Source: Nitrososphaerota archaeon
GTDB taxonomy: Archaea > Thermoproteota > Nitrososphaeria > Nitrososphaerales > Gagatemarchaeaceae
Assembly (NCBI GenBank): GCA_016200045.1
Contig: JACQFN010000002.1
Span: 1 to 64,000, forward strand
Length of the DNA: 64,000 nucleotides
Direction of reading: 5' to 3'
Shown piece after piece: positions 853 through 21,091 of the stretch. The notes under the pieces are model-generated. The model saw only the letters and a list, made by a program, of their open reading frames with translations. It made no database searches and had not been told where the DNA came from. Each line of letters starts with the position of its first letter. Within the stretch, counting starts at the first letter, position 1. The translations under genes and the position numbers were made by a program.

Positions 853-1980
853 CTAGGTCCAAGTTGTGACAACGAGTGGCACACTCTGGCCATAAATTCC
901 GATTGGGCAACTCAGACCGCCAGGCCCTCCTGAAGTCGTACCGACCAAGTACATGAAAACTGAGTATATATCTCCTTGACCAGGACCTGCGCCTCCTCCC
1001 GAAGCAGATAGGCCAGGATTGAAGGTAAAATAGATTGTTTGAAGGTGTAGGTACTGGATTGGGGGGTTCGAAAGAATCGTATCAAAAGTCGTCTTAGTGG
1101 TAAGGGTTGTCGCATTGACACTTAGGATAGAATAGACCAATGCCTTTGGCGATGTCGGGGAAGCAACATTCACATCAACCAGCTCCGTTCCTTGTTTGGT
1201 GCCGCCGCCCCCCCCATTGAACAGAGGGATTGCAGCTGAGAGTTGGATACTTCGCCTGCACGAATCAAAATTCTGTACTACAATAGAGAAAACTTCCGAA
1301 GAATAATCCGAGCTGGAAACATTATAGCCTGACTGACCCGGTCCTAGGGAGCAACTGGTTGAAGGCCCTGGAGTGCAGTTCCCCAAGCTGTAAGCTAGGA
1401 ATGTCGAGAATCGGATGGAAAGCAGACCTATCCCCTGACTGAGAAACGCTTGGTTCGCTAGGGGAACAGGGATTGGCGGGTAGGTCTGAACGAAAACGTT
1501 GCCTCTCGCCGTGATGACCTTCAACGTACAGTGCTGCGTTGCTGGATCCGCATTGCAAAGCACCGTCGTATTGTAGGGAACGACAGTAATCGTGCCCTGA
1601 GCTAGTGCGAACGGCAAGTCGGAACGCTGTATATCGCACCAAGGAGGAGTAGGCAAGGCCGGACACAGGGATTTTGTCTGACCGCCTTCATCGGTAACGA
1701 ATAGAGCAACAATGACCACGTTAACACCTCCGTCGTTCGCAGCTGTAAAGAGCAGTTGTGCATTGGTGTTTACACTAGTGTCTAATATGATATTCTCACT
1801 CAAAGCGTTCTGTCGATTGATGTTCTTGACATCGAGAGCCTGTGCAACCCTCGAGTTTATGGAGTTGACGTTGAGGAAGAAACCTAGCCCTACTGTGAAC
1901 AAAAGCGTGAACATGATAACTGCAGCTAGAATCCCCGCGATTCCCTTCCGCCTCTGGTTCTTCCTCTGTTCTAGCCGCAA
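853..1980 (-). CDS. Pilin-like protein B, cassette 1 (class III signal peptide-like N-terminus)
   Basis: N-terminus RKGIAGILAAVIMFTLLFTVGLGFFLNVN; same family as the N- and C-terminal parts of the 1399-aa protein at 11264. Confidence 0.65.
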   Translation of the reverse strand: MRLEQRKNQRRKGIAGILAAVIMFTLLFTVGLGFFLNVNSINSRVAQALDVKNINRQNALSENIILDTSVNTNAQLLFTAANDGGVNVVIVALFVTDEGGQTKSLCPALPTPPWCDIQRSDLPFALAQGTITVVPYNTTVLCNADPATQHCTLKVITARGNVFVQTYPPIPVPLANQAFLSQGIGLLSIRFSTFLAYSLGNCTPGPSTSCSLGPGQSGYNVSSSDYSSEVFSIVVQNFDSCRRSIQLSAAIPLFNGGGGGTKQGTELVDVNVASPTSPKALVYSILSVNATTLTTKTTFDTILSNPPIQYLHLQTIYFTFNPGLSASGGGAGPGQGDIYSVFMYLVGTTSGGPGGLSCPIGIYGQSVPLVVTTWT

Positions 1981-3015
1981 TTACTTCACCTGAAAACTCA
2001 ATACTATTCTGCCTGCGTCTCCGAGGACCTGTACATAATACGTCCCGCCCTGGATAAAGGTCTGGCTAGGTGGGAGAGTCAAGGTGACTTTAAGGATTCC
2101 ACCAGGCGGGACTGTGGCAGGATTAGACGCCCCAGGTTGGAGTGTCGTCGTCATCGTGGCTTGGGACCCGGAAAATGCTCCGGTTTGGCACCCGGAAACT
2201 GTGCTCAAAGTATTGAGGTACAGGTTATTGACCTGTCCAAGCGTTGCAATGGAAGTCGAAGACGAGGTGGTAGTCCCACTGGAGGTGGTCGACACGGTGG
2301 TGGTGGAGGAAATCGTTGTTGTAGAAGAAATTGTGTCAGTCGTCTTTATGGTAGTCGTGGACGATATCGTGGTGGTCGAAGATATTGTCGTGGTGGAAGG
2401 AAGCGATATGGTTTGAGTTATCGTGGTGGTAGAGGACCTTGTGGTAGTGGACGAACTTGTTGTGACCGAGGTTCCTTGTGGCTGAGCGACACTAATCGTG
2501 GTCGAGGTCCTTGTGGTAGATGAGGTCGTTGTTGTCGATGAAGTGGTGGTCGTCCTGGTTCTCGTCGTTGTAGAGGTGGTAGTTGTCGCTGAGGTTGTAG
2601 TCGTTGAGGAGGTCACGCTAGTCTGAGCGCTGGTCGTAGAACTAGTGGTGGTTCCTGAAGAGGTTGTCAAGGGAAAGGTCGTAGTCGCAGAAGTCGTCGA
2701 GGTAGTCGATACGGCAGAATGTGCTTCGCCTGACAAAGTCACGCCCAGCACCCCCAGGTGTGTCTGACCCGTGTTCAATAACCATAGAGTAGCAGTAGTG
2801 TCACTCAAGGCAATGTTTACTATCGAGAACTGTTGATTCGCGCAGTTGATCCCTGCGTTGGCGGCCCGATTGTACTGAGTCTCGCTCAGAAAAGCCTGGC
2901 TGTTCACGATTGAGAATGTGATCGCACCTGCGACAAGTGTGACGCCAATCGTGATGATTGCCCCCAAAAGCTCTGAAATGGCGGGTCTTGTCATGGGCCG
3001 TCTATTGAAATTCAC
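1981..3015 (-). CDS. Pilin-like protein A, cassette 1, with long Thr/Ser-rich low-complexity stalk
   Basis: RPAISELLGAIITIGVTLVAGAITFSIVNSQ pilin-type N-terminus, then about 150 aa of STTT-type repeats and a C-terminal beta-rich domain; possible GTG start at 3015 or ATG at 2994. Confidence 0.65.
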   Translation of the reverse strand: MNFNRRPMTRPAISELLGAIITIGVTLVAGAITFSIVNSQAFLSETQYNRAANAGINCANQQFSIVNIALSDTTATLWLLNTGQTHLGVLGVTLSGEAHSAVSTTSTTSATTTFPLTTSSGTTTSSTTSAQTSVTSSTTTTSATTTTSTTTRTRTTTTSSTTTTSSTTRTSTTISVAQPQGTSVTTSSSTTTRSSTTTITQTISLPSTTTISSTTTISSTTTIKTTDTISSTTTISSTTTVSTTSSGTTTSSSTSIATLGQVNNLYLNTLSTVSGCQTGAFSGSQATMTTTLQPGASNPATVPPGGILKVTLTLPPSQTFIQGGTYYVQVLGDAGRIVLSFQVK

Positions 3016-3248
3016 GATTGCACGGTCGAAGGTAATCCATTCAAGATATGTTCTTAAGTTTTTCACAGTTCTCGAGTGCATTACCGGGTTTGTCCCATTA
3101 GCTCCGGCGAACGGTATCGACTGACCGTTCGTAAGTGTGAATAATCCAGTAAGGATTCCCAGTGTATGCCACGCCACTTGTACACGAACCCAAGGAGAAC
3201 GTTTTGCAAAAAGCATTCAGGAGCCGAGAGAAACTCAGCTTCGCTAGT

Positions 3249-6198: not shown

Positions 6199-6957
6199 CT
6201 AGAATTGAGTGAGCTTTCGCCCCGAAACGACCTGGCCCGAGGACAAGAGCTGTCTTCGTATTCGCCGTGACGTGACCTCGACAAGCCCCTTCCCTTCGAG
6301 GAGGACGGAAGTCTCAGCGGGATTCCCCCTGACCAGAGCGAAAATCCTGCCTCCCGGTTTCAACACTCTCACCGCCTCCTCCAGTTCGAATATCCTGTCC
6401 GCGAGCTGCCTGAACCGCTTCGCCCCGAAACCTGAAATCACCATATCAAACGCCTCCCCGCGCAGGGGCAGCGTCCTTCTGTCGGCGTTCGCGGCTCCGA
6501 CAATTGTTTCCCCCTTGACTGGATTCTCAATCATGGCTTTCAGATCTCTTGCCGTTCCGTTTGCAGTGCCGAGGGAGTCGACCCCGATCACGACTCCCCG
6601 GGTCATCCGCTGGGCGACACTCGACATTACCCACCCCTTCCCGCAGCCTACTTCAGCCACTATCTCGTCTCCTCCCCATGGAAATTCCCTGACGAGCCTT
6701 GCCGCCTCGCGGGTTTTCACTATTGCATTGTCCCAGAGCAACAGAAGTGCGCCGATAGTCATGACGGAGCCCGAGGTCGCCAAGGAGTAGATCATCAATC
6801 CCGTGACCAAGTCATACGGACTGAGGTAAACCGTCGCAATTACTCCTATGGCCAGGAGGGCTTGCCCGACAACGACGAGGAGAAAGAACGGCCGGGCCGG
6901 CTCCAGGACATAGGTCGAAGATGGCCGCTTTGCCTTTCTTGATGTCAAGCTAACCAA
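6199..6957 (-). CDS. Membrane-anchored SAM-dependent methyltransferase
   Basis: Two N-terminal TM helices, then VAEVGCGKGWVMSSVA...VIGVDSLG motif; paralog of 19057-19854. Confidence 0.7.
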   Translation of the reverse strand: MVSLTSRKAKRPSSTYVLEPARPFFLLVVVGQALLAIGVIATVYLSPYDLVTGLMIYSLATSGSVMTIGALLLLWDNAIVKTREAARLVREFPWGGDEIVAEVGCGKGWVMSSVAQRMTRGVVIGVDSLGTANGTARDLKAMIENPVKGETIVGAANADRRTLPLRGEAFDMVISGFGAKRFRQLADRIFELEEAVRVLKPGGRIFALVRGNPAETSVLLEGKGLVEVTSRRIRRQLLSSGQVVSGRKLTQF

Positions 6958-7060: not shown

Positions 7061-7810
7061 TCAAGAGCTGGGAACAGTCACTGTCTCAGTGGATGTCTCC
7101 GTTACGGTCTCTGTCACCGTGACCGTGGGGGTGGTTGTCGCCGTCGCGGTTGTAGTCGTCGACACCGAGCTCGTCGAGGTCGTAGTGGCGGTTGTTGTGG
7201 CTGTGGTTGTGGTCGAGGCTACCGCGGTCGAGGTGGACGTCGTGGCTAAGGTCGTCGAAGAGGTGTGCGTTGTGGTGGTCGTGGTAGGCGTGACCGAAGT
7301 CGAGGTGGTTGTCGTGGTAGTCGAGGTGATGGAGGCGACTATCAGGGTCGTCGTGGAGGTGGAAGTCGTAGTAGTCACTTGTGTTGTAAGCGTGGTCTGA
7401 CTGGATGTAGTAACCTGCGTGGTTGAAGTTGTCGTGGTCTGCGTGACCGTCGTCGTCCTGGTAGGGGTCGAAATCCTCGTCGTGGTCGAGGTCGCAGTCA
7501 GCGTGCCCCCCTGGAAGACGGTCGAGGTTCGCACTGAGGTGAGAGTCTTCGTTGACGTCTGAGTCACTTCTGAAGTCTCTGAAACGAACGACGTAACGTT
7601 GTTCGTCACGGTCTCAGACAGGGTACTCGGGGAAAACGTAGTTAGCGTCGAGGTCGATGTCGTGGTGGTCGGCTCCAGGTTCGTGGTTGTCGAGGTTGCC
7701 GTCACAGTCTTCGGGACCGTGGGGACGACCACCAAGGCAGTGTAGGAAGCTCCCACCGTGAATAGAACGACTATCACCAGCATCGTCAGTGCGACGTTAC
7801 CGAACTGCAC
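7061..7810 (-). CDS. Membrane-anchored Thr/Ser-rich low-complexity protein
   Basis: N-terminal TM (ALTMLVIVVLFTVGASYTALVV) and about 200 aa of Thr/Ser repeats; the opposite-frame Val-rich ORFs are its antisense. Confidence 0.55.
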   Translation of the reverse strand: MQFGNVALTMLVIVVLFTVGASYTALVVVPTVPKTVTATSTTTNLEPTTTTSTSTLTTFSPSTLSETVTNNVTSFVSETSEVTQTSTKTLTSVRTSTVFQGGTLTATSTTTRISTPTRTTTVTQTTTTSTTQVTTSSQTTLTTQVTTTTSTSTTTLIVASITSTTTTTTSTSVTPTTTTTTHTSSTTLATTSTSTAVASTTTTATTTATTTSTSSVSTTTTATATTTPTVTVTETVTETSTETVTVPSS

Positions 7811-8104
7811 GAAGGAGGATGAAGAAACGGCGTTGAAATAGTTTCAGGATTTGAGAATGTGTTGCGTCGCTAGTCGCCACCTTGCCCCTATTGCTGCGGC
7901 GGGGCCCGATTTGGCTGACGGCGGGGGTCGGAAGGTCCTCAAGATCGGTTGGTCTTGGTAAAGGAAATTCGGTCGAAGCCACGTCCAATCGAGGTGGACC
8001 GGTGTCGATGCGGCTTCGAAATTGAGATTTTGAGTTGCGAAGTCCTGCGCGCGTATTCCGGATTCCGAAAACGGATATATGGGCGAGTCCGAGGCGGAAT
8101 CGGT

Positions 8105-10552
8105 TTGAGAGGTCACAAGGACCACGGGAGCGCCCTTCTGGCTGTCGGGCTTGTTCTCTGCTTCCTAATCTCTGTCGTTCTGAGTGGCATCCCAACGGCA
8201 TTCGCGGCGAAGAAGGTCACAGCCGCAGGGGTTCCCTACGCTCTCGGGCTGCAAGTCGTACCCTCCAAGCTTCCGTCAGACGGGGCGACGTACGCATCAC
8301 TGTTCGTCACGCTCCTTGACAGCACCTCTCGCCCTTCCATAGCGGCCTCCTACGTCTCAGTCTACCTGTCGTCATCTCAGGAAAACATAGCCACAGTCGT
8401 CCCGACCCTGATAATCCAGCCCGGGTCCAACTACGCAACTGCGAACATCACGACGACCGTGACCCCTGGCAACGCGGTCATAACGGCCTCATCTCCCGGC
8501 CTTCTCACTGCGTCCGTGGTGGCCTCCACGGCGGTACCCAGCGGCTTTCCTTCTCAACTCAAAGTCTTCCTGTCTCCGGCGACCGTACTCGCCCAGCCCA
8601 ACGTCCAAGGGTCATTGATCGTGGAGCTTTTGGACCAGAAAGGTCAACCTACGAAGTCGCCCACGGATATCATTGTCTCGCTGTCATCAAGCAACACGCG
8701 GGTGGTGAACGTCTCACAATCGTCCATCGTCCTCAAGGCTGGGAAGCTGGAAGTAGCCTCACTGTACACGTCTTCCTACATACCAGGCAAGGCCAGGATA
8801 ACGGCAGCATCTGCCGGCTTGGCCGCGGGCTCGGGGACCCTCACCGTCACCGGTCCTTCGCCTCAGATTCTCCATATGTACGCCCAACCCAACAAGATCC
8901 CTATTTCGACATCGGGGAAACTGTCGATAGTTCTCTCAGACTCGACTGGCAACCCGGCACGGGCCCCCAATGACATTACCGTTTACTTGAGCTCGACCAA
9001 CACGAGCGTCGCCAAGGTTCCGTCCTCTGTAGTGGTCCGCGGTGGAAGCATCTTGGTGGAGGCGCTCTTAAACACGACCGCCCACCCCGGGTCCGTGACG
9101 ATCACTGCTTCTTCGACAAATCTTGTGACGACCAGCACGACTCTAAGGTCTTTCGTGCCCGTCTTGACGCCTGCAAAACTGAAACTTGAGCTGTCCCCGC
9201 CAATCGTTCTTGCGGACGGAAGCAGCTACGACGCAGGAGTGTTGTCTCTTCAGAACTCCCTAGGGAGTCCAGCCGAGTCCGCTGCCGCGGTGACTGTCCA
9301 GCTCACCTCCTCCAACACCAAGGTCGGTACCGTCCCCCTGACCGTGACCTTTCCCCCGAACCGCAACTTTGTGAGGGTCGTCTTCTCAACAAGCTTTCTG
9401 TCGGGATCGACCGCAATCACGGCCTCAGGGAACAACTTGTTGACGGATCAAGTGTCGATATCCACCTTCGGACCGGTTCCTGTGAAACTCGCCCTGTCGG
9501 TATTGGCCTCGTCTAACAGCCTTCCCGCCGACGGACTAGCATACCAAGTCCTGCAGGTCGCATTGACAGACTCGGTAGGGGGGCCGGCGCCTGCTCCTGT
9601 CGACGTTTCCGTTCAACTCCTTTCAGCCTCATCGGGCGTAGTCTCGGTTGACTCGTCGATAACAATCCCGGCTGGTTCGTTTGCCGCCGTGGAAACGGTG
9701 TCGACGAGTCCACTGCCGGGCAAGAGCAACATCAGCTCCCTTGCCCAAGGCTTCTCCTCTGCCGGCGTCTCTATCACGACTCAGATTCCTGCCCCGTACA
9801 CTCTTGCTGGCCTCATCGCCCCGACTCCGAGCGTGCTCTCTGAAGTTGCGACCCCGCCAATGTTCGGCGTGCAACTCAGGGACTCCTTAGGCAATCCGAC
9901 TCGTGCGGCCCTGCCTACCCAAGTCCTTGTCACTTCATCGAACGCGAAGATGATTCCACTCCCGTTCATTCTGACCGTTCCACAGGGAGCGGATCACCTG
10001 CTGGTCCCGCTCAACGTCCCCGTGAATGGAACGACCATTCTAACGCTGTCTGCCCCCGGTTTGAAGACGTCCTCGGTGCACGTGGACATAAGAGGTCCGT
10101 CTCAGTCGGTCACTGTAACTCCCAAGACATCGAATATCTTCACTAATGGTTCCGTGAATCTTGTTGCCACAGTGAAAGTGGAAGGGCAGCCTATCTCGGG
10201 CGTGACCGTGTCTTGGAACGCCACCCTGGGGAGGCTTGACTCGAACACTTCTTTGACATCCACATTGGGGACAGCCACGAACGCCTTTCGGCCAACTCAG
10301 ACCGGTCTGGCGAAGATAACGGTCACGTTCAGCAGCCCTGCCATCGGAACAATAGTCTTGACGCCTACCGTCACCGTATCGGCGATTCCGCCAAGGGCTA
10401 CACCATCGCTCCTCCAAGTCTTGCTGGGCTATCTGATTTTCGTAGTCCCTGTCGTGGCCGTTGCGTTGGGAGTCTTCTTGTTCCTCCAGGTCAGGAAGCG
10501 TCGCCAGAAGGCCCGTGAGGAGCTCGAAGCGGGTTTCCAGACTCTCACGTAG
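8105..10552 (+). CDS. Large secreted/anchored protein with repeated Ig-like (invasin/BIG-type) domains and C-terminal TM
   Basis: TTG start gives signal peptide RGHKDHGSALLAVGLVLCFLISVVLSGIPTAFA; repeated units such as LADG..Y..L.V.L.DS.G.P..AP.DV.V.LSSSN..V; C-terminal TM plus KRRQK. Confidence 0.65.
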   Translation: MRGHKDHGSALLAVGLVLCFLISVVLSGIPTAFAAKKVTAAGVPYALGLQVVPSKLPSDGATYASLFVTLLDSTSRPSIAASYVSVYLSSSQENIATVVPTLIIQPGSNYATANITTTVTPGNAVITASSPGLLTASVVASTAVPSGFPSQLKVFLSPATVLAQPNVQGSLIVELLDQKGQPTKSPTDIIVSLSSSNTRVVNVSQSSIVLKAGKLEVASLYTSSYIPGKARITAASAGLAAGSGTLTVTGPSPQILHMYAQPNKIPISTSGKLSIVLSDSTGNPARAPNDITVYLSSTNTSVAKVPSSVVVRGGSILVEALLNTTAHPGSVTITASSTNLVTTSTTLRSFVPVLTPAKLKLELSPPIVLADGSSYDAGVLSLQNSLGSPAESAAAVTVQLTSSNTKVGTVPLTVTFPPNRNFVRVVFSTSFLSGSTAITASGNNLLTDQVSISTFGPVPVKLALSVLASSNSLPADGLAYQVLQVALTDSVGGPAPAPVDVSVQLLSASSGVVSVDSSITIPAGSFAAVETVSTSPLPGKSNISSLAQGFSSAGVSITTQIPAPYTLAGLIAPTPSVLSEVATPPMFGVQLRDSLGNPTRAALPTQVLVTSSNAKMIPLPFILTVPQGADHLLVPLNVPVNGTTILTLSAPGLKTSSVHVDIRGPSQSVTVTPKTSNIFTNGSVNLVATVKVEGQPISGVTVSWNATLGRLDSNTSLTSTLGTATNAFRPTQTGLAKITVTFSSPAIGTIVLTPTVTVSAIPPRATPSLLQVLLGYLIFVVPVVAVALGVFLFLQVRKRRQKAREELEAGFQTLT

Positions 10553-10626
10553 GCACCCTCTCCAACGAGTAGGGAAACGCCTCGCACCAAGAAGAATTGC
10601 CGATAAATAACCCATAAATATCGCCC

Positions 10627-11259
10627 GTGAGACAAAACTTTTTCCGCACTGAGAAATTGAAAGTTACCTTAGGCAATCAAAGGAAAGCAATCTCCGAGTT
10701 GATGGGGGCTCTCCTCACCATTGTCATCACTTTGACTGCCGGGACGGCTATGTTCGGATACGTTTACAGCCAACTGGGAGTGAGCGAGAGCCAGTTGGGC
10801 GGCGCCATAGGCGGGAACATCAATCAGCTTAGAGAGTCGTTCGTCATCCCGTATGCCAGTTTTCCCGTAGGTAGCCGTGGAAACATTACACTCGGAATCT
10901 ACAACAACGGGAGGGCTGCCTTGAACCTCACGACCGTTCGGGTGTCCGGCAACATATCTAGCGTTTCGGCCTGGCAGATAGGGTCGGTGACCTTCACCCA
11001 CGCGAATGTGGTCGTGGCCAGCAATTCAGGAAGCCAGCTGTGTTCCACCAGCACGAATGTGCAAGCCTACGAATTCCAGAACGGCTCCCCCCTGACGCTT
11101 GGGTCCGTCCTCTACCCATTGGGAAACTTCACGAACCTGAGACTTTCTATTCCGGATCTATGCGGGTTTGACTTCGGACTGGGGTCGTTTTCGATTCTTG
11201 CGATAGGGTCGAACGGTTACACGCTGGTCCGACCCATTCAGAACAACGGGACTGGATGA
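10627..11259 (+). CDS. Pilin-like protein A, cassette 2
   Basis: GTG start; QRKAISELMGALLTIVITLTAGTAMFGYVYSQLGVSESQ matches the cassette-1 A N-terminus. Confidence 0.7.
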   Translation: MRQNFFRTEKLKVTLGNQRKAISELMGALLTIVITLTAGTAMFGYVYSQLGVSESQLGGAIGGNINQLRESFVIPYASFPVGSRGNITLGIYNNGRAALNLTTVRVSGNISSVSAWQIGSVTFTHANVVVASNSGSQLCSTSTNVQAYEFQNGSPLTLGSVLYPLGNFTNLRLSIPDLCGFDFGLGSFSILAIGSNGYTLVRPIQNNGTG

Positions 11260-11263
11260 GGAC

Positions 11264-14200
11264 ATGAAGTTCAAGAGGTCCGTCTGGAAACGAAAGGCCA
11301 TTTCTGGGATCGTCGCGGGCATACTGTTCTTTGCCTTACTCTTCACCGCGGGCGTGGGCCTAGTCCTGTTCGTCAACGACCTGGTAGGCAAGTACCAACA
11401 GGCTCAGCAACAATACCAGTCCGATACCACTCAGCGAAACGCGGAGGCCGCCGCCCTTTCCACTTCGGGCACCGCTTCAATCTTCGTAAGCGTCAACAAC
11501 ACCGGCAGGGTCCCGTTCCAGATAGTGGGGGCCTTCATCACAAACAAGTCTGGGTCTTCGGTGTCCGGGGGTAGCGGGGTCCTACCCAGTCCCAGGGTTG
11601 TCCCAATGAACGTCGAATTCAATTCGTCCTACCCCTACTCGCTCGACATCTGGCCCGGACCGTCAAGCGTGAACATAAGCACTGGCTTTTCTCCAGAATC
11701 CGGAGCCCCGTACGCGGTCGGCATCGTCACAAAAGCTGGAAACGTCTTCTACGCGAGGTTTCCGAGCCAGACTCCCATCGGGTCTGCGGCACATTCCCCC
11801 GTCCTGGCTGAAATCGTGACAACGCTCAATGCAAGCTTCATATTCCCGGGACAGAGTGTCTTCGATCAGGCGACTCTAACCGGAGTCACTCCCGCAGCAG
11901 GAGGAACGGTGACCTACAACGTTTGGGGGCTGGGGGAACCCTGCTCGAGCTTGACGACCCCTGATGCGTCATTCATCGTCCCCGTGACAAACGGGACGGT
12001 CCCTCCGTCCCCAAGTCGGCTCTTCAACAACACCGGCTTCTACAGTTGGGACGCGTTCTACACTGGAGATTTGCAAAACGACAACGCGACTAGCGCCTGC
12101 GAACCTTTGGTGGTGACAGCAACGACTGGGATAATCACGCAGGTGATAACCACGCTCTCGGCGAGCGTGATCGTCCCTCCCGGCAGCGCGTTCGATCAAG
12201 CCACCCTCACGGGGGTCACCATCAACGCCGGAGGAAACCTCACCTACTACTATTTCGCCGATGGCACCTGCGGCTCGGGCCGGACGGCGGTGAACCAGGT
12301 GGCCGTCAGCTTTGGCGCGGCCCCGCGTTCCGACTCGGTCAATTTTCCCCTTTCAGGGCTTTACAGTTGGGATGCGGTCTACGTTGGCGACTCCAACAAC
12401 CCCGGGACGTTCACCAGCCCATGCGAGCCCTTGCTCGTCACTTCCTCCAACATCTTACCAGCCCTCGTCACTATTCTCTCATCAAGCGTCATTACCCCAG
12501 GAGACTCCGTCTATGACCAGGCGACCTTGACGGGAGCCACAAAGGGAGCAGGAGGGAGCGTCACCTTCTACTACTATGCCAGCAGTGGCATCTGCCTGGG
12601 TCTGGCTACGCAGATAGGTTCACCTGTAGGCGTCCTTAACGGCACGGTACAAGGCAACTCGGATCCGATAACCTTTAGTGCCTCTGGGTCGTATTCGTTC
12701 TATGCCGTCTACTCCGGGGACCCCAACAACAACCCAGCCACGAGCGCGTGCGAACCTCTCCTTGTGTCTCCCAAAGTTGTTCCGGGGCTTGTCACGACGC
12801 TGTCCTCCAACTTCCTGCTGCCGGGTGGGTCTGTGTTTGATCAGGCGACCCTGATCGGGGTTACGAGCGACGCAGGAGGCGACGTGAGCTACTACAGATA
12901 CGTTGCAAGCGGGACTTGTCAGGGCTCCAGAAGTTTGGTGAGCACCTCCTCGGTTAAGAGTGGAAAGGTTGACGCAAACTCAAGCGCCGTGGGCTACCCC
13001 GGTGCCGGGTCTTTCAGCTGGGCAGCCGTCTATTCGGGGGACTCGAACAACAATCCGAGCACCAGTGCATGTGAGCCCCTGTACGTGTCGCCGAATTTCA
13101 TACGCTCGATTACGACAACGCTTTCTGCAAATGTCATCAACCCCGGAGACTCGGTATCCGACCAAGCCAATCTTACTGGTGTGACCACGACAGCGGGCGG
13201 GACTGTCACATACTACAGGTACAGCAACGGAATCTGCACCACAGGCAAAACCCAGGTGTCACAGGTGACCGTCACCAACGCGGTCGTACCGAAATCCGGT
13301 TCTTTCGCTTTCGCCTCCGCTGGGACTTTCAGCTGGAGTGCAACGTACTCAGGGGACGGAAGCAACGCCGGGGCTTCGAGCCCCTGTGAGCCTTTACTGG
13401 TTGAGCCGCGATACGTGACTCAGATGGTGACGACGCTCTCCGGTTCCGTCGTAACGCCCGGGACCTCTGTGTTCGACCAGGCCAGCCTGTCCGGAGTGAC
13501 TACGACGGCGGGCGGCACGGTGACATACTACAGATACTCTAACGGGGTCTGCGGTTCAGGACAGACGCAGGTCGGGTCTGTGAAGTCGGTGAGCGGCGGA
13601 AGCGCCCCAATTTCAGACACATTCACGTTCGGATCCTCGGGAGTCTTCAGCTGGAACGCCGTATACAGCGGAGACGCGAACAACGCAGGGGTGACAAGCC
13701 CATGTGAACCTCTTCTTGTGACCAATGTCAACTACATCGTATCGGTCATCACAACCCTCTCGTCGAGCTCCGTCGTTCCCAGCACTGCCGTCTACGACCA
13801 GGCGACGTTGACGGGCGTTACGACCTCTGCAGGGGGGACGATGACCTACTACAGGTTCACTGACTCCGCCTGCACAACGGGTCAGACTCAAGTGGGAGCG
13901 GTGAAGACAGTCGCGAGCGGGATAGCCCCGAAATCTGACTCCTTCACTTTCACTACGGCCGGATCATACAGCTGGGATGCGGTCTACTCTGGAGACTCGA
14001 ACAACGCAGCGGCCACCAGCGCATGCGAGCCTCTGACGGTCTCTCACACATTCATACCAGCGTTTACGACGACTCTTTCCGCCAATGTAATCAGCCCAGG
14101 AGGTTCGGTCTACGACCAGGCAAGCCTCGAGGGCGTCACGAGTGATGCAGGGGGGACTGTGACTTACTACAGGTACACTAACGGTCTATGCTCCACCGGG

Positions 14201-15463
14201 CAAGTCACGGTCGCTACGGTGGCGGTGACCAATGGAATCGCGCCATCTTCTTCGTCTGCCACCTACCCAACTGCAGGATCTTTCTCCTGGAAGGCGACGT
14301 ACTCCGGCGACGCGAACAACAACGCCGCGAACAGCCCCTGCGAACCTCTCCTTGTGGAAGCACCCCCCTGCGGCACCAGTGCAGTCTGCTCCTCTTCGAA
14401 CAGCCTAACCACTCAGGGAATCGGCTTCATCGGTTTCAATTTCGACCACTTCATTGTCTACGATTTGGGGTCGTGCGATGTATTTTCGTTCTCCGTGGCA
14501 CACCAAGGTTGTCCCTCACCACTCACCACTCCTTCACTAGCCACTAACCAATACTCAGGATACTTCGTGAAACCCCAACAACACTTCGAGGTGTTCATAG
14601 GTCTGCTTACTAACGTCGACCCGAGCGGCCGCACGCTAATCTTGATACCTCCTACTGTCACCGGCGTCGGAGGAGGAAGCGAGCGAAGCACGGGAGGTGC
14701 TGCCTTCATCGAGTTCGCTGAGCCAAAGACAGGTGGCGGCACAATCGCCGCATGGTCATACGGACTCGTGGTCCCTGTTAACGAAACCGGGAGCGGAGGA
14801 GGTAGTTGCCCGGCATCGGGAACCTGCATCGAGCCTTTGAGAACAAGCGGAGGTGTATCTCTGAACAGAGGCGGAGTCGCCCTGCCACCGATCACTTGCT
14901 ATGATGGTGCAGGGGGAACGGGCAACATTGTGGCGTGCGGTAGCTCTACAGCAGTGTCGTTCGTCACCCATCCGACGTGGGTGTATTTTGCTGCCGCATA
15001 CCAGGAAACTGCCAACAATGCGGAGCCGGGGGCAGGGGGAAGCTCCGCTTGCACAAGCCCATGTGCGGTGGGTAACTTCTTCTATCTTCAAGGAATAATC
15101 GGGGGCAACGTATATGGGCAGAACATCCCATTCTCAATCACTCTGTGGTCGACGCAGACGCTAACAACGACAGCACTATCATGCTCTCCCTCGACACAGG
15201 CTCACGGCTCCACAGTGACTTGCACCGCCACCGTTACTGGCACAACCCCGACCGGAACAGTCACTTTCTCAACGTCCCAAGCAACCGGAACGACTTGGAG
15301 CCCAACGTCCGCCACCTGCACTCTCGCTCTGAGCGGGGGCGTCTACAAGTGTTCGGTCACCTATACCCAGAGTGTTGCGGGCACACCGACAATAACCGCG
15401 TCCTACACCGGCGACGCCAGCAACACCGCAAGTGGAGTCACGAGCACGGTGACGTTCACGTGA
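11264..15463 (+). CDS. Giant pilin-like adhesin (pilin B, cassette 2) with eight ~107-aa Ig-like repeats
   Basis: 1399 aa; KAISGIVAGILFFALLFTAGVGLVLFVND N-terminus; eight repeats with consensus ITTLSxxVxxPGxSVYDQATLTGVTxxAGGTVTYYRYxxGxC...AGxFSWxAVYSGDxNNxxxxSxCEPLLV; C-terminal Ig-like domain. Confidence 0.75.
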   Translation: MKFKRSVWKRKAISGIVAGILFFALLFTAGVGLVLFVNDLVGKYQQAQQQYQSDTTQRNAEAAALSTSGTASIFVSVNNTGRVPFQIVGAFITNKSGSSVSGGSGVLPSPRVVPMNVEFNSSYPYSLDIWPGPSSVNISTGFSPESGAPYAVGIVTKAGNVFYARFPSQTPIGSAAHSPVLAEIVTTLNASFIFPGQSVFDQATLTGVTPAAGGTVTYNVWGLGEPCSSLTTPDASFIVPVTNGTVPPSPSRLFNNTGFYSWDAFYTGDLQNDNATSACEPLVVTATTGIITQVITTLSASVIVPPGSAFDQATLTGVTINAGGNLTYYYFADGTCGSGRTAVNQVAVSFGAAPRSDSVNFPLSGLYSWDAVYVGDSNNPGTFTSPCEPLLVTSSNILPALVTILSSSVITPGDSVYDQATLTGATKGAGGSVTFYYYASSGICLGLATQIGSPVGVLNGTVQGNSDPITFSASGSYSFYAVYSGDPNNNPATSACEPLLVSPKVVPGLVTTLSSNFLLPGGSVFDQATLIGVTSDAGGDVSYYRYVASGTCQGSRSLVSTSSVKSGKVDANSSAVGYPGAGSFSWAAVYSGDSNNNPSTSACEPLYVSPNFIRSITTTLSANVINPGDSVSDQANLTGVTTTAGGTVTYYRYSNGICTTGKTQVSQVTVTNAVVPKSGSFAFASAGTFSWSATYSGDGSNAGASSPCEPLLVEPRYVTQMVTTLSGSVVTPGTSVFDQASLSGVTTTAGGTVTYYRYSNGVCGSGQTQVGSVKSVSGGSAPISDTFTFGSSGVFSWNAVYSGDANNAGVTSPCEPLLVTNVNYIVSVITTLSSSSVVPSTAVYDQATLTGVTTSAGGTMTYYRFTDSACTTGQTQVGAVKTVASGIAPKSDSFTFTTAGSYSWDAVYSGDSNNAAATSACEPLTVSHTFIPAFTTTLSANVISPGGSVYDQASLEGVTSDAGGTVTYYRYTNGLCSTGQVTVATVAVTNGIAPSSSSATYPTAGSFSWKATYSGDANNNAANSPCEPLLVEAPPCGTSAVCSSSNSLTTQGIGFIGFNFDHFIVYDLGSCDVFSFSVAHQGCPSPLTTPSLATNQYSGYFVKPQQHFEVFIGLLTNVDPSGRTLILIPPTVTGVGGGSERSTGGAAFIEFAEPKTGGGTIAAWSYGLVVPVNETGSGGGSCPASGTCIEPLRTSGGVSLNRGGVALPPITCYDGAGGTGNIVACGSSTAVSFVTHPTWVYFAAAYQETANNAEPGAGGSSACTSPCAVGNFFYLQGIIGGNVYGQNIPFSITLWSTQTLTTTALSCSPSTQAHGSTVTCTATVTGTTPTGTVTFSTSQATGTTWSPTSATCTLALSGGVYKCSVTYTQSVAGTPTITASYTGDASNTASGVTSTVTFT
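11801..14356 (+). repeat. Eight in-frame ~107-aa (~320-nt) Ig-like repeats within the giant pilin-like protein
   Basis: Manual alignment of eight units, each ending S(A/P)CEPLxV and each with two cysteines. Confidence 0.8.
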
Positions 15464-15591
15464 CATCGGAATCAGGGACCCGCGATGCACCCCATGAGGA
15501 ACGGATCCAAGTCACTCTTATATGCGAGAATAGGCTAGACAAGCTCGAAGCGGGAGATTTGGAATTTCATTCAACGCGGGGATCCGGGTAA

Positions 15592-17310
15592 TTGTCCAAG
15601 ACCAAAGAAGGCCCACCTTCTGATGCTTCTTCGCAGGGATTCGAGACAGGCGAGGGCCCAGCGCACCCACCGCAGCAGACGACTCAGCCCACGCAGGCCC
15701 CAAGCACTTCCGAGGTGAAGAAACAGCAAGAGAAGCTGTCATCGCTCCTCAGAAAGACAAACCTTCGCTTCCCCATGACTGGAACCAAGATTCCCTCCGC
15801 CTGGCGCGTCCTGGAAAGGTACCCGGTGAACAGCCCTTTCGCGTATGCCGAAGTCTCTGAAAGTCCCCTCGGGGTCAAGAAGTACTTCCTAGACGAAGTT
15901 CCGCTGTCGAAGGCCGAGGCCGGGATTTACTCGTACATTTTGGATACCCTGGAGACAGAGCTTACGGTGCCTCGGGCCGAAGTAAACCCTCGTCAGTACT
16001 TCTCAGAACAGGCACGACGAATAGTCTTGAAGTACAGCATAAGAGTCCCTGCAACCTCTTGGTCCAAGATCATATATTTCGCGGAAAGAGACCTGGTGGG
16101 TTTCGGGGTATTGGACGGGCCGTTGAAGGATCCCCAGATAGAAGACATTTCCCTCGACGGGTCCAACAGGCCGATATTCATCTACCACAAGGGCCACGAG
16201 ACGCTGGAAACGAATGTCACGATACCTAACGACGAGGCGCTCGACAACATAGTCACCCGGCTCTCCCACATGGCAGGGAAGCACGTGTCGACTGCATTTC
16301 CCATCGTCCAAGGAACCCTCCCAGGAAGGCACAGACTCATTGCGACCTTCCGCAGAGAGGTGTCTCCGATGGGAAGCAGTGCGACCATCAGGAAGTTCAG
16401 GGAGGACCCTCTCACCATCATTGACATGCTCAACCTGAATCTGGTCGACCACAAGATTGCGGCCTATACCTGGCTGCTGATGCAGAACAGGTCAACAGCC
16501 ATAGTTGTCGGAGCGACAGGAGCGGGAAAGACCACTTTGCTAAATGCAATATTGACTCTCACTCGCCTGACCACAAAGCTCGTCACGATTGAGGAGGTCC
16601 AAGAGATCAACGTGCCGCATCAGAACTGGACGCCTTTGGTTTCGAGGGAGAGTTATGCCGCCACGGAAGAGAAGGCAGGTGAAGTCGACCTCTTCGAGCT
16701 CGTGAAGGCCGCCATGAGAATGAGGCCCGACATCCTCGTGGTTGGAGAGGTGAGAGGGCAGGAGGCGTATGTTCTCTTCCAGGCAATCAGCACCGGCCAC
16801 GGTGGCTTGTGCACCTTGCATGCCGACGATGAAACGTCGGCAGTTCAGAGGCTCCTCTCAGCACCCATGGACGTACCTGCCGCCTTCTTGCCGTTCCTCG
16901 ACATCATCTTCGTGGTAAGGCGGATCTCTATCCCTACGCCATCGGGTGGGTTCAAGTCAATCCGAAGAGTGATTTCCGTCGACGAGATCGTTAGTGCGAC
17001 CCAGTTTGAGAAGGTCTTCAAGTGGGATGCAAGAACCGACTCGTTCAAGTCATCGAACCTCGAGAAGAGCCCGAGGATTCAGAGGCTCGCAAGAGATGGC
17101 GGCTTCGAGGCGAGTCAGCTTGTTCAGGAGATTGACCGTAGGGCGCTGGTGTTGAAATGGATTCAGCAGAAGGGAATCAGGAATTTCAAAGAGGTCGCTC
17201 CGATTCTGGACTTCTATGTGACACGACCTGAAGAGACGTATCAAAGGGCTCTGGCTGAAGTAAACGCGATGGGAGCACATGCTCCAACCATTCAAGAGAT
17301 TCAGAAATGA
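15592..17310 (+). CDS. Type IV pilus/archaellum-like assembly ATPase (FlaI/TadA/GspE family)
   Basis: Walker A IVVGATGAGKTTLLNAIL; MRPDILVVGEVRGQEAYVLFQAISTGHGGLCTLHADD; TTG start. Confidence 0.92.
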   Translation: MSKTKEGPPSDASSQGFETGEGPAHPPQQTTQPTQAPSTSEVKKQQEKLSSLLRKTNLRFPMTGTKIPSAWRVLERYPVNSPFAYAEVSESPLGVKKYFLDEVPLSKAEAGIYSYILDTLETELTVPRAEVNPRQYFSEQARRIVLKYSIRVPATSWSKIIYFAERDLVGFGVLDGPLKDPQIEDISLDGSNRPIFIYHKGHETLETNVTIPNDEALDNIVTRLSHMAGKHVSTAFPIVQGTLPGRHRLIATFRREVSPMGSSATIRKFREDPLTIIDMLNLNLVDHKIAAYTWLLMQNRSTAIVVGATGAGKTTLLNAILTLTRLTTKLVTIEEVQEINVPHQNWTPLVSRESYAATEEKAGEVDLFELVKAAMRMRPDILVVGEVRGQEAYVLFQAISTGHGGLCTLHADDETSAVQRLLSAPMDVPAAFLPFLDIIFVVRRISIPTPSGGFKSIRRVISVDEIVSATQFEKVFKWDARTDSFKSSNLEKSPRIQRLARDGGFEASQLVQEIDRRALVLKWIQQKGIRNFKEVAPILDFYVTRPEETYQRALAEVNAMGAHAPTIQEIQK

Positions 17311-19016
17311 GCGAAGTAAAACTGACCGAGCTCGAAGGCAGGGTGAGGAGAGAACCGCTCCTGGGTTGGTTCGACCGTTTCGTTTCCTTTACCTTCAGGA
17401 TTTTCGCTGGACCCGCCGGGCGCATAGCCAACTCGATGCCTCAACTCCGATCCCAGATTCTCAAATCGAACCTCAGAACCTCACCTGAAGGGTTGGTCTC
17501 CATGGCCCTTTTTGCTACTATGGTTGCGGGAGTGACCACTGTTTTTCTCGCGGTCTATGGGTTCTTCACCCTTCATCAGGTCTTGTTTCTCTTCTTCCCG
17601 GTGGCCATTCCAATTGTGTACCTTGTCATAACCAGTCTGCCGAAGCTGAGCTCTTCGGGCCGTGCAGCCGCGATTGACACGGAACTGCCGTTCGTACTCG
17701 GGTACATGAGTGTCTTGGCAGGTGGGGGGGTCTCGCCGATCGAGACGCTCAGGAGAATCTCTCAGATGGATGTCCTCCCCGCGTCCAGAAAGGAGGCCAA
17801 GAGGATCCTCGTCGATACCGACGTCTTCGGGTTCGACCCCATTACGGCGATGGAGAACGCCTCGAAACAGAGCCCTAGCAGGTACTGGTCGGAGTTCCTA
17901 GCCGGATACACGGCCGTCCTGAAGTCCGGAGGCAGTTTCGAGAACTACATACAGATCAAGCTGAGGGACCTCGTGGCGAACAGGTCGGCGGTAGTGAAAA
18001 ATGCCTCCGACCTCACGGGGTCCGTCGCTGAGGCGTACCTTACGATCACAGTGGTCCTCGGAATGACTCTCTACACTCTGTACATGGTCCAGGCCATGCT
18101 TTCAGGTAATCTTGGTGCGTTGCAGAACCTGTATCTCTTTGCCTTCCTGGTCGTCCCCCTGATTTCAGCGGGTTTCGTCTATCTGATCGACGCCATACAG
18201 ACGAAATGGCCTTACACCGACTACCGGCCCTACAAGTTCTTCGCTGCCATGATCCCAGTGGCCCTGGTTGTTCTTTTCATACCGATCCCGATTCCCCTTT
18301 ACCTACACGTTTCAGTCGCGTTGGGGGTGGCATCGGGCCCGCCTGCCTCCTATTCCCTCAGGATTTCGAGGGAAAGGCGACGGTTGGAACGAGCCCTTCC
18401 CGACTTCATTGGAGATGTAACCGAGGGAAGGAAGACCGGACTCTCTCCGGAACAGAGCATCGAGAGGCTTTCGAGTCGGAACTACGGTGTCCTGTCCAGA
18501 CACGTGAAGAAGATGGGCGCCCAACTTTCTTGGGGAGTCTCCCTCTCCAAAGTAATCTCCACTTTCACCGGCGCGGTTGGAAGTTGGGTAACCCGTGCCA
18601 CCGGAGTGCTCCTCATAGAGGTCGTGGATGTCGGAGGAGGGACCGTGCGGAGCTTCACCGAGATGGCGGCATTCGCGAGGACGATTAACGACCTCGAGAC
18701 CCAGAAAAGATCTGCCCTAAAGCCCTTCGTCTTCATTACTTACATTGCCGGCATAATGGTGATCATGACGACGTTCATCCTTGTCTACATGCTGTCGGCA
18801 CCGGCTACCCTCGGCTACAAGGCTGCAACCGTCGATTCTCACACGATCGACCTCCTGCTCACCACGGCGGTGTTCGATTCGTTCGTCATTGGCCTGGTAG
18901 CAGGTAAGATGGGAGAGAGCAGCCTCTCGGACGGATTCAAACATGGATTCGCGCTTGTCATTGCCAGCGTAGTCTCCGTCGCAATCGCGAGGCTCTTCAT
19001 CAACATCCCTCTGTAA
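17307..19016 (+). CDS. Type IV pilus/archaellum-like membrane platform protein (TadC/FlaJ, T2SSF domains)
   Basis: 4-nt overlap with ATPase; two T2SSF-like halves (PFVLGYMSVLAGGGVSPIETLRRIS.. and DFIGDVTEGRKTGLSPEQSIERLS). Confidence 0.88.
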   Translation: MSEVKLTELEGRVRREPLLGWFDRFVSFTFRIFAGPAGRIANSMPQLRSQILKSNLRTSPEGLVSMALFATMVAGVTTVFLAVYGFFTLHQVLFLFFPVAIPIVYLVITSLPKLSSSGRAAAIDTELPFVLGYMSVLAGGGVSPIETLRRISQMDVLPASRKEAKRILVDTDVFGFDPITAMENASKQSPSRYWSEFLAGYTAVLKSGGSFENYIQIKLRDLVANRSAVVKNASDLTGSVAEAYLTITVVLGMTLYTLYMVQAMLSGNLGALQNLYLFAFLVVPLISAGFVYLIDAIQTKWPYTDYRPYKFFAAMIPVALVVLFIPIPIPLYLHVSVALGVASGPPASYSLRISRERRRLERALPDFIGDVTEGRKTGLSPEQSIERLSSRNYGVLSRHVKKMGAQLSWGVSLSKVISTFTGAVGSWVTRATGVLLIEVVDVGGGTVRSFTEMAAFARTINDLETQKRSALKPFVFITYIAGIMVIMTTFILVYMLSAPATLGYKAATVDSHTIDLLLTTAVFDSFVIGLVAGKMGESSLSDGFKHGFALVIASVVSVAIARLFINIPL

Positions 19017-19056
19017 TGCTTATGGAGCCCACGCAAGACGGTGGGTTCAACAGGGT

Positions 19057-19854
19057 TTGGCTGGACAGACGAAAAGCGAAAGTGCGATGTCGGAGCTTCG
19101 TGAAGGCGCCGTCCGGACTGCGAAGCCCGCGTACGGAGTTGACGAGCCGTACACAATCACATCATTGACTGTCATGGGGCTAGCCTCAATGAGCAGTGGA
19201 ATCATACTCCAGGCCTACCGTGGCAGCACGGGCCAGCTGGTCGCCCTGTTTGGCCTTGTGGCAGGGTTCGTTGTCGGTTTGATTTTTCTGGTTTTTGCCT
19301 TCTCACTACTCTACAGCAGCAGACGGTGGAAACTGACTGAACTCTCCGCAATGGCATCCCGATTGCCCTTGGGCGGGGAAGAGCGCGTGTTGGACATCGG
19401 GTGTGGACGGGGGGCGTTTTCCAACCTCGTCGCAGCTAGACTGTCAGCTGGCTTCATTGTCGGCCTGGATGTCTGGAATCCGAGGCAACTTTCTGGCAAC
19501 CATCCTGCCTCCATGCTCATGAATTCTGAAATCTGCGGGACCACCAGCAAGATACTACTCGTGAAGGCTCATCCGAGCGCACTTCCATTCGTCAAGAACA
19601 GTTTCGATGTGGCAATTTCTGGAATGGCTTTCAACCGTCTGGAGAGTGGCCGTGAGCTGCAGAATGCATTCAAGGACGTCATTTCCATTCTTAGGCAGGG
19701 AGGGAGGGTCAGTTTCCTAGTCGCTGGCAGATCAGGTCCCTATGTGGACGAAATCAAGCGGACCGGGATGACTGATGTTGAAGTTGAGCGATTCAGGTTG
19801 GGTCTTCTACCTCCGGCGCACACGATAACAGGCCGAAAGCCTTACAGACAGTGA
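19057..19854 (+). CDS. Membrane-anchored SAM-dependent methyltransferase (paralog of 6199-6957)
   Basis: Two N-terminal TMs, ERVLDIGCGRGAFSNLVAARLSAGFIVGLDVW. Confidence 0.7.
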   Translation: MAGQTKSESAMSELREGAVRTAKPAYGVDEPYTITSLTVMGLASMSSGIILQAYRGSTGQLVALFGLVAGFVVGLIFLVFAFSLLYSSRRWKLTELSAMASRLPLGGEERVLDIGCGRGAFSNLVAARLSAGFIVGLDVWNPRQLSGNHPASMLMNSEICGTTSKILLVKAHPSALPFVKNSFDVAISGMAFNRLESGRELQNAFKDVISILRQGGRVSFLVAGRSGPYVDEIKRTGMTDVEVERFRLGLLPPAHTITGRKPYRQ

Positions 19855-20004
19855 CCTCCTCTGCCGTGGTCGTACATAACCCGACTCACGCCGAAGGAAG
19901 AGCATTCAGTGGCCGGGCAAGACGAAACCCCTCGCGCGGACTCTGTTTTGGTCTTGTCAACCTATTTGATGCAATTTTTCGTATCATGTCAAAATCCAGC
20001 GTCC

Positions 20005-20044
20005 ATAATGGTTATAAGGCGATTTCGGACCAAAAAAAATACAA
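20005..20044 (+). promoter_or_regulatory. Putative archaeal TATA promoter of pilin gene
   Basis: GGTTATAAGG about 30 nt upstream of ATG at 20045. Confidence 0.35.
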
Positions 20045-20458
20045 ATGGACATAAGAAGGTATACAAGAAAAAGAGCCATTTCGCCAGTTCTAGCAACAGT
20101 CATCCTCATCGCCATCACCCTAGTCGCAGCGGTAGCGATCGCAACATTCGTATTCGGTCTATTCGGGACCTCGATCTCCGGCCCCACCCTATCAATAATC
20201 TCCAGTTCAGTGGCTTGTAACGGAGGGACAGGCTCGGGCACCTGTGCCATGACCGTGCACAACGCCGGAGCCAGCGCAGGGACAATACTTACTGCAGGAC
20301 CCACCCAAACATTCAACTTTAACGGTTCAGAGCCATTCACGGTCCCAGCCAACGGGAACATCCTCGTCAACATGACTTATGCGGGAACAGGTCAAGCGAC
20401 AGGGTACCTTACCCAATCGAACGGACCAAACTTGGTCTTCTCAGTGACACTGTCGTAG
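20045..20458 (+). CDS. Archaeal type IV pilin
   Basis: KRAISPVLATVILIAITLVAAVAIATFVFGLFG. Confidence 0.85.
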   Translation: MDIRRYTRKRAISPVLATVILIAITLVAAVAIATFVFGLFGTSISGPTLSIISSSVACNGGTGSGTCAMTVHNAGASAGTILTAGPTQTFNFNGSEPFTVPANGNILVNMTYAGTGQATGYLTQSNGPNLVFSVTLS

Positions 20459-20490
20459 GGACAACAATCGGCATAGGCGAAAACAGGAAC

Positions 20491-20519
20491 GCGCACTGCC
20501 CAATTCATGGGAAGTGCGC
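20491..20519 (+). terminator. Stem-loop downstream of pilin, followed by T-rich tract
   Basis: GCGCACT-G-CCCA-ATTCA-TGGG-A-AGTGCGC: 7+4 bp perfect arms with one internal mismatch, then ttcttcatttcttt. Confidence 0.55.
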
Positions 20520-20575
20520 CTTCTTCATTTCTTTATGACCTGAAGGGCCTCTCCGGACAGGACTGAAGGGAGAGG

Positions 20576-21091
20576 ATGTCATGTTCTAATAGCCCCGCAT
20601 TTGGTCAACGACCCGTGAAGGAACTAGGGAATTCCTCAAGTCGTGGAGTTTCCGAAATCCTTGCCACTGTTCTCCTGATCGCAATAACGTTGATTGCGGG
20701 GGCCACTCTGGCATCATTCGTCTTCACTCAATTCCAAACTACTGCCTCCATTCCTGTCATTTCGATAGTCCCAGGACCCACTCCCTGCTTCCCCAGCGTC
20801 CCGGGGACCGTCGTCTCGCCCGGGGGTCTTCCGGTAACGATACCACAGGGGGACTGTGCATTCATCGTGCAGAACTCGGGAGTAAGGGCGGGAACGATTG
20901 CTGGAGTAGGTCCAAGCCCGACCTTCGCGTTTGACCAGTGCAATGGTCTATCGTCAAGCAGTTGTGTTGTCCCGTTGAACGGCTTCTCAGTGGTGGCCAT
21001 AAGATATTCAGGTTCGACCAACCAGTATGTTTCCGGGTTCCTCATCCAATCGACAGGCCCGAACCTTTACTTCTTCATATCGATACCGTAG
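20576..21091 (+). CDS. Archaeal type IV pilin, paralog of the preceding gene
   Basis: SRGVSEILATVLLIAITLIAGATLASFVFTQF; C-terminal part shares AGTI..GP..TFxF and GFLIQSTGPNLYFFISIP with GYLTQSNGPNLVFSVTLS. Confidence 0.8.
   Translation: MSCSNSPAFGQRPVKELGNSSSRGVSEILATVLLIAITLIAGATLASFVFTQFQTTASIPVISIVPGPTPCFPSVPGTVVSPGGLPVTIPQGDCAFIVQNSGVRAGTIAGVGPSPTFAFDQCNGLSSSSCVVPLNGFSVVAIRYSGSTNQYVSGFLIQSTGPNLYFFISIP

Follow-up and report, generated by a model that had tools for sequence, protein, structure and literature searches.

A giant predicted type IV pilin with an immunoglobulin-like array between its pilin domain and a second conserved domain in a Nitrososphaerota archaeon

The window analyzed here is a stretch of 64,000 nucleotides from a Nitrososphaerota archaeon (GenBank assembly GCA_016200045.1, contig JACQFN010000002.1, positions 1 to 64,000, forward strand); it opens contig C22 in a genome of 1.54 Mb and 25 contigs. 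It holds two cassettes of pilin-related genes. Cassette 2 encodes the giant protein B2 and cassette 1 a short paralogue, B1, which has no array of immunoglobulin (Ig)-like domains (Table 1). B2 consists of an N-terminal pilin domain with a class III signal (KRKAISGIVAGILFFALLFTAGVG), eight Ig-like repeats, a conserved C-terminal domain, and a terminal Ig-like domain. The array spans amino acids (aa) 185 to 1036, with repeats starting at aa 185, 295, 402, 510, 617, 722, 829, and 935, and 28 columns are invariant across the eight. A hidden Markov model (HMM) built from these repeats placed all of them exactly between the GNVF and QGIG blocks, as a first-pass annotation of the DNA had proposed. 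That annotation also described repeats of ~107 aa and an appended C-terminal Ig domain. Both are present, with repeat lengths of 102 to 110 aa, but the last Ig domain is a divergent copy of Pfam family Big_3_5 (independent E value of 0.03 with the repeat HMM) that lies outside the array and is not a ninth member. Big_3_5 scored 117.3 bits in B2 against a Pfam cut-off of 35.5, which identifies the repeats as Ig-like and as an extra, non-pilin module. An Rfam scan of the window gave no RNA element above thresholds.

Table 1. Features of the two pilin cassettes in the window (CDS, coding sequence; ORF, open reading frame; AF2, AlphaFold2; pLDDT, predicted local distance difference test)
Feature	Coordinates	Strand	Evidence
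B1, 375-aa paralogue without Ig array (cassette 1)	853..1980	-	Alignment to B2; AF2 model
Ig-like protein, 867 aa, with C-terminal hydrophobic helix	7949..10552	+	Recurs beside A-B-E-F cassettes
A2, single-domain pilin, 4-base gap upstream of B2	10627..11259	+	Weak UpsB/UpsA matches; N half of B HMM, E 2e-6
B2, giant modular pilin CDS, 1399 aa	11264..15463	+	Uninterrupted ORF, ATG start
B2 N-terminal pilin domain, aa 1-170: class III-type signal KRKA|ISG, hydrophobic alpha1 helix, beta-sandwich	11264..11773	+	B-family HMM 79.2 bits; equivalent B1 region modeled and matched to 8fk7
Ig-like repeat 1	11816..12145	+	Repeat HMM; Pfam Big_3_5
Ig-like repeat 2	12146..12466	+	Repeat HMM
Ig-like repeat 3	12467..12790	+	Repeat HMM
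Ig-like repeat 4	12791..13111	+	Repeat HMM
Ig-like repeat 5	13112..13426	+	Repeat HMM
Ig-like repeat 6	13427..13747	+	Repeat HMM; AF2 pLDDT ~85-90
Ig-like repeat 7	13748..14065	+	Repeat HMM; AF2 pLDDT ~90
Ig-like repeat 8	14066..14371	+	Repeat HMM; AF2 pLDDT ~90
B-family conserved C-terminal domain, aa 1038-1296 (QGIG...YGQNIPFSITLW), putative head	14375..15151	+	HMM 36.6 bits; hhalign probability 99.0; low-confidence AF2 model
Terminal Big_3_5 Ig-like domain, aa 1306-1397	15179..15454	+	Pfam
E2, secretion/assembly ATPase	15592..17310	+	Pfam T2SSE E 6e-36; NCBIfam archaellum FlaI 331 bits and BasE 228 bits, both below cut-off
F2, membrane platform, TadC/FlaJ/UpsF-like	17307..19016	+	Pfam T2SSF E 2.9e-19; UpsF 122 bits, below cut-off

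B1 and B2 are homologous on both sides of the array. The motif pairs ITARGNVFVQTYPP/VTKAGNVFYARFPS, QGIGLLSIRFSTFLAYSLGNC/QGIGFIGFNFDHFIVYDLGSC, and IYGQSVPLVVTTW/VYGQNIPFSITLW occur in both proteins in the same order, as had been claimed. With the full protein as the blastp query, aa 5 to 168 of B1 aligned with aa 4 to 167 of B2 (E = 5.8e-10) and aa 175 to 247 with aa 1044 to 1127 (E = 3e-5); when the repeats were spliced out of B2, the remaining core matched B1 with an E value of 4e-19. A family HMM, the profile of 14 B proteins, recovered both flanking halves (E = 1.7e-26 for the N half and 1.4e-13 for the C half). The N part scored 79.2 bits and the C part 36.6 bits, whereas the top scores among 500 shuffles were 7.0 and 4.9 bits, so that 0 of 500 reached the score in either case; the repeats gave no match to this HMM (-3.1 bits). 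In a profile-profile comparison (hhalign), the C regions of 4 long B proteins matched the C domains of 10 short ones with a probability of 99.0 and an E value of 3e-18. The proposed homology of the flanking halves stands.

The sole PDB sequence found by the B-family profile was a type IV pilus subunit of Pyrobaculum calidifontis (8fk7; E = 1.1e-9), and the match, at profile positions 11 to 165, spans the entire N half but no other part. An AF2 model of B1, built from 31 sequences, has a long helix (residues 2 to 60), a beta-sandwich (64 to 167; pLDDT mostly around 90), a short helix (172 to 184), and a second beta domain (187 to 373) of lower confidence. With this model as the query, the top PDB match in Foldseek was again 8fk7 (E = 1.9e-4; TMt = 0.66), with an archaellum filament and FlaF lower. 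These matches in sequence and fold, together with the signal, the N-terminal helix, and the family HMM score, bear out the pilin-type N terminus and point to a complete pilin module in B2. Among 141 B-profile matches, 122 have the signal motif close to the N terminus by a loose pattern. On the profile and model results, an entire archaeal pilin makes up the N half, and the C half adds a further domain. Because the Ig array starts directly after the end of the pilin domain, it is a spacer between that domain and the second conserved domain. The earlier description of repeats inserted into a pilin scaffold was therefore correct in that they lie between the two shared halves, but the pilin fold itself is uninterrupted. 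An AF2 model of B2 aa 722 to 1399 also gave PDB matches to complement and macroglobulin structures; their root mean square deviations were very large, and we rejected them as merely generic Ig-like domains.

Short two-domain B proteins, about 320 to 390 aa long, are found across genus and family, and also in Bathyarchaeia, and they normally adjoin a single-domain pilin A and often an ATPase and a platform protein. The B-family profile matched 152 of the 401 genomes of the class at E <= 1e-4, a threshold that also admits some A-type pilins. Judged by these matches, the short B protein is no plain pilin but a member of a two-domain family that recurs in both Nitrososphaeria and Bathyarchaeia.

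Ig repeats lie at this same junction, between B-profile positions ~170 and ~179, in four species: 4 in genome G033, at least 5 in G009 (where the gene runs off the contig end), 8 in the window, and 13 in G018. The G033 protein is 1703 aa long; the G018 orthologue has 2007 aa and is 56% identical to B2 across the N part and repeats. In a tree of the repeats, window copy 3 grouped with G018 copy 3 and window copy 4 with G018 copies 4 and 12, each with 97% support, and the two arrays are in register at copies 3 and 4. Copies 6 and 7 of G018 are duplicated as copies 8 and 9 (96 and 92% aa identity); the array has therefore grown internally. For these pairs, nonsynonymous divergence (dN) was 0.024 and 0.071 versus synonymous divergence (dS) of 1.2 and 1.0, giving dN/dS of about 0.02 and 0.07. 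By this measure, purifying selection on the repeat pairs is strong, and they were not duplicated recently. Every G018 repeat, all four G033 repeats, and seven of the eight window repeats have two cysteines (the eighth window repeat has three), and one disulfide per Ig domain is plausible. The reach of the subunit appears to have been altered in evolution through Ig copy number. The same type of repeat is found in the window's own genome on a Peptidase_A4 family protein (G000:C22:214021-216120; locus L038, 6010-8120).

Other B proteins carry different additions. That of G003 has 2138 aa, with an insert of ~1690 aa between the halves that includes DUF2341; G371 encodes two 760-aa B proteins with inserts of ~260 aa placed somewhat deeper in the C half; and one Bathyarchaeal B protein has about 125 extra aa. 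Ammonia oxidizers form a further group. A search for amoA was positive in all 14 genomes tested from two ammonia-oxidizer families and negative in the genome of the window, taken here as non-ammonia-oxidizing, and in four related genomes from the same family. The pilin A partner in the ammonia oxidizers commonly has 600 to 1055 aa, with the same pilin domain. A LamG/ConA-like lectin domain scored above the Pfam cut-off in 7 of 10 long B proteins scanned from the largest ammonia-oxidizer family and in 0 of 3 from the second, and the B-family C domain was undetected in the long pilin-domain proteins of ammonia oxidizers. The loci L175, L176, L186 to L189, and L193, from amoA-bearing genomes, encode a protein of 800 to 1055 aa with a pilin domain and a LamG/ConA-like domain, a candidate lectin pilin, which in most of them follows a pilin A.

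A broader picture, which we hold only tentatively and regard as somewhat doubtful, is that of an ancient two-domain pilin B of the Nitrososphaeria and Bathyarchaeia whose inter-domain socket would independently have taken up Ig stalks (4 to 13 repeats), the ~1690-aa DUF2341 insert, and other modules, with the ammonia oxidizers placing a lectin behind the same base. The B proteins would then be interchangeable, length-tuned adhesive tools on archaeal pili.

The pilus ATPase and platform genes that the first-pass annotation placed next door are E2 and F2, directly downstream of B2 and overlapping each other by 4 bases. The A-B pair is conserved across the class, usually as one copy each beside E-F, and the order A-B-E-F is retained. 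With an ATPase, a TadC/FlaJ-like platform, and pilins in one locus, and with T2SSE and T2SSF above Pfam cut-offs, this fits an archaeal type IV pilus locus. Membership in the Ups pilus or bindosome was rejected, as scores were below the equivalog cut-offs for UpsB (19 versus 70 bits), UpsF (122 versus 400), BasE (228 versus 1000), and BasF (84.5 versus 1300). Smaller classic pilins are encoded near the cassette (at 20045, 20576, and 3249), and homologues of the 867-aa Ig-like protein adjoin cassettes in L039, L046, L048, L050, L051, and L173.

A tandem row of three B genes of unlike length, encoding up to 1969 aa, separates pilin A from the ATPase in L042 (1302-9625), L052 (3164-12411), and L055 (1756-9457). 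Neighboring ORFs with the B N half and C half at L173 (3660-7867) resemble a split or frame-broken giant B gene. In G018 the A-B-E-F-methyltransferase cassette has the opposite orientation to that in the window (7949-21091 versus L039), with the flanking Ig protein and the pilins and downstream genes collinear; an invertible switch was rejected, since the cassette borders showed no clear inverted repeats. Beside each cassette lies a methyltransferase-like gene (6199-6957 and 19057-19854); the two are paralogous and encode membrane helices at the N terminus. The cassette-1 pilin A (1981-3216) has a long Ser/Thr-rich, mucin-like stretch behind its pilin part, a separate Thr-rich protein is encoded at 7061-7810, and the cassette-1 ATPase is cut off at the left edge of the window. 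A further ATPase-platform pair, distinct from that ATPase, lies at a contig start (G000:C12:1-3447; L170).

We consider B2 likely to be a stalked, modular type IV pilin, probably an accessory one, that is assembled by the adjacent ATPase and platform and holds its head ~30 to 35 nm away. The N-terminal signal and pilin domain would make B2 a substrate of prepilin peptidase, and E2 and F2 would insert it into a filament beside ordinary pilins. At about 4 nm per Ig domain, the eight disulfide-capable domains would form a rod of about 30 to 35 nm, which would hold the C-terminal domain and the terminal Ig domain at a distance from the filament or the cell surface. These two domains would most likely bind a surface, a partner cell, or a polymer. 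Tandem duplication inside the array would change the stalk length with no loss of the pilin base or the head, so that copy number would set the reach. Several points weigh against this interpretation. At 1399 aa, B2 would make a very large filament subunit, it has no recognized ligand-binding domain, and the genome's top prepilin peptidase candidate, a Peptidase_A24 match encoded elsewhere, scored 24.9 bits against a Pfam cut-off of 26.5. In the AF2 model of aa 722 to 1399 the repeats were well modeled and the C domain was left at a pLDDT of ~35, for which reason its role as a head is argued from sequence. Processing, disulfides, assembly into a pilus, a place at its tip, rod length, and adhesion are likewise deduced from the genes.

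The large size of B2 would be less troublesome if it did not polymerize at all. It could use the pilin-type signal merely for membrane insertion and act as a fibrillar adhesin anchored by its N-terminal helix, or as a protein that spans the surface layer (S-layer) and lifts its head through it. Within the family, surface-type proteins that are not pilins do have similar Ig repeats (the L038 peptidase A4 protein and L045), and the Ig-like protein with a hydrophobic helix at its C terminus is repeatedly encoded beside the cassette. However, B2 retains an intact pilin domain that matches a filament-forming pilin, and in several species its gene is still flanked by those for pilin A and the ATPase/platform, so we regard this main competitor as unlikely. 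The conservation of A-B pairs, usually with one copy of each gene beside E-F, also suggests a different arrangement, in which B2 is a major or co-major subunit and the array is no tip device but a coat of Ig rods decorating the whole shaft. UpsA and UpsB jointly build the Ups pilus, and A2 is weakly similar to both. Against this stand the steric burden of ~1200 appended aa per subunit, the smaller classic pilins nearby, and the tandem B genes of L042, L052, and L055, up to three and of unlike length, which resemble alternative accessory subunits. A coated shaft therefore seems improbable.

The array itself might be a phase-variable device that switches length rapidly, like bacterial Periscope proteins, and the unlike copy numbers of the four species and the internal tandem duplication in G018 would fit such a device. 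The repeats of Periscope proteins are near-identical at the DNA level, a property that B2 lacks: identity among the window repeats is at most 63%, and the Tandem Repeats Finder (TRF) program reported no tandem array there. Ready slippage is therefore not expected. Even the closest G018 copies are 80 to 82% identical in DNA, with dS of about 1 or more. The length variability raised in the first-pass annotation holds between species; rapid length switching is unsupported, and we think a phase-variable device highly improbable. The stalked accessory pilin is the interpretation we carry forward.

The attachment of soil and ocean archaea, whether to surfaces or to one another, is little known. Should the B proteins be adhesive pilus subunits, sequence searches could pick out attachment factors of a major archaeal class, many ammonia oxidizers included, and species with 4, 8, and 13 repeats could be compared to test what stalk length does.

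Several known systems resemble parts of B2. The 8fk7 subunit of the P. calidifontis flagellar-like type IV pilus is homologous to the whole B N half, but it is a single domain of 144 residues with neither the second domain nor an Ig array. Ups pili and the bindosome (Ups, Bas) of the Sulfolobales likewise have their pilins, ATPase, and platform clustered, and in NCBIfam their parts rank first or close to first for A2, E2, and F2, with all scores far under the equivalog cut-offs. To our knowledge, the Ups and Bas pilins have no Ig stalk. Periscope proteins and fibrillar adhesins share with B2 a tandem-domain stalk that projects a head and whose length follows copy number, but they are bacterial, have wall-anchor motifs, and lack a pilin base (PMC8201768, PMC9210967). 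At the tips of the Kil/Tad pili of Myxococcus, large pilin-like minor pilins with extra modular domains customize the tip complex; these differ from B2 in pilin family, in their heterotrimeric tip, in a genetically tested role in predation, and in having no Ig stalk (PMC12075869).

The closest parallel is with the bacterial modular type IV pilins PilB and PilC of Streptococcus sanguinis (Raynaud et al. 2021, PMC8179133). As in B2, an N-terminal class III signal and pilin module precede a large non-pilin module. The extreme example in that survey is a pilin of 860 aa with 12 repeat copies (PMC8179133). Adhesion has been proposed or shown for the S. sanguinis proteins, whereas for B2 it is a prediction. 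PilC uses the LamG/ConA-like lectin fold class that long B proteins of ammonia oxidizers also carry (PMC8179133), and this shared fold is why we draw the adhesin analogy for the B proteins. A literature search, with subscription papers outside its coverage, returned nothing relevant on lectin-domain pilins in Nitrosopumilus or other ammonia oxidizers, and no account of an inter-domain Ig spacer in pilins was found. B2 differs from the bacterial modular pilins in being archaeal and in having a longer, Ig-like array, of species-dependent copy number, set before a second lineage-conserved domain. If our interpretation is correct, the bacterial modular-pilin principle extends to archaea through a different plan, with a spacer between base and head. 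Modular pilins are thus known in bacteria; the Ig-stalked archaeal form, with its base-spacer-head plan, is new.

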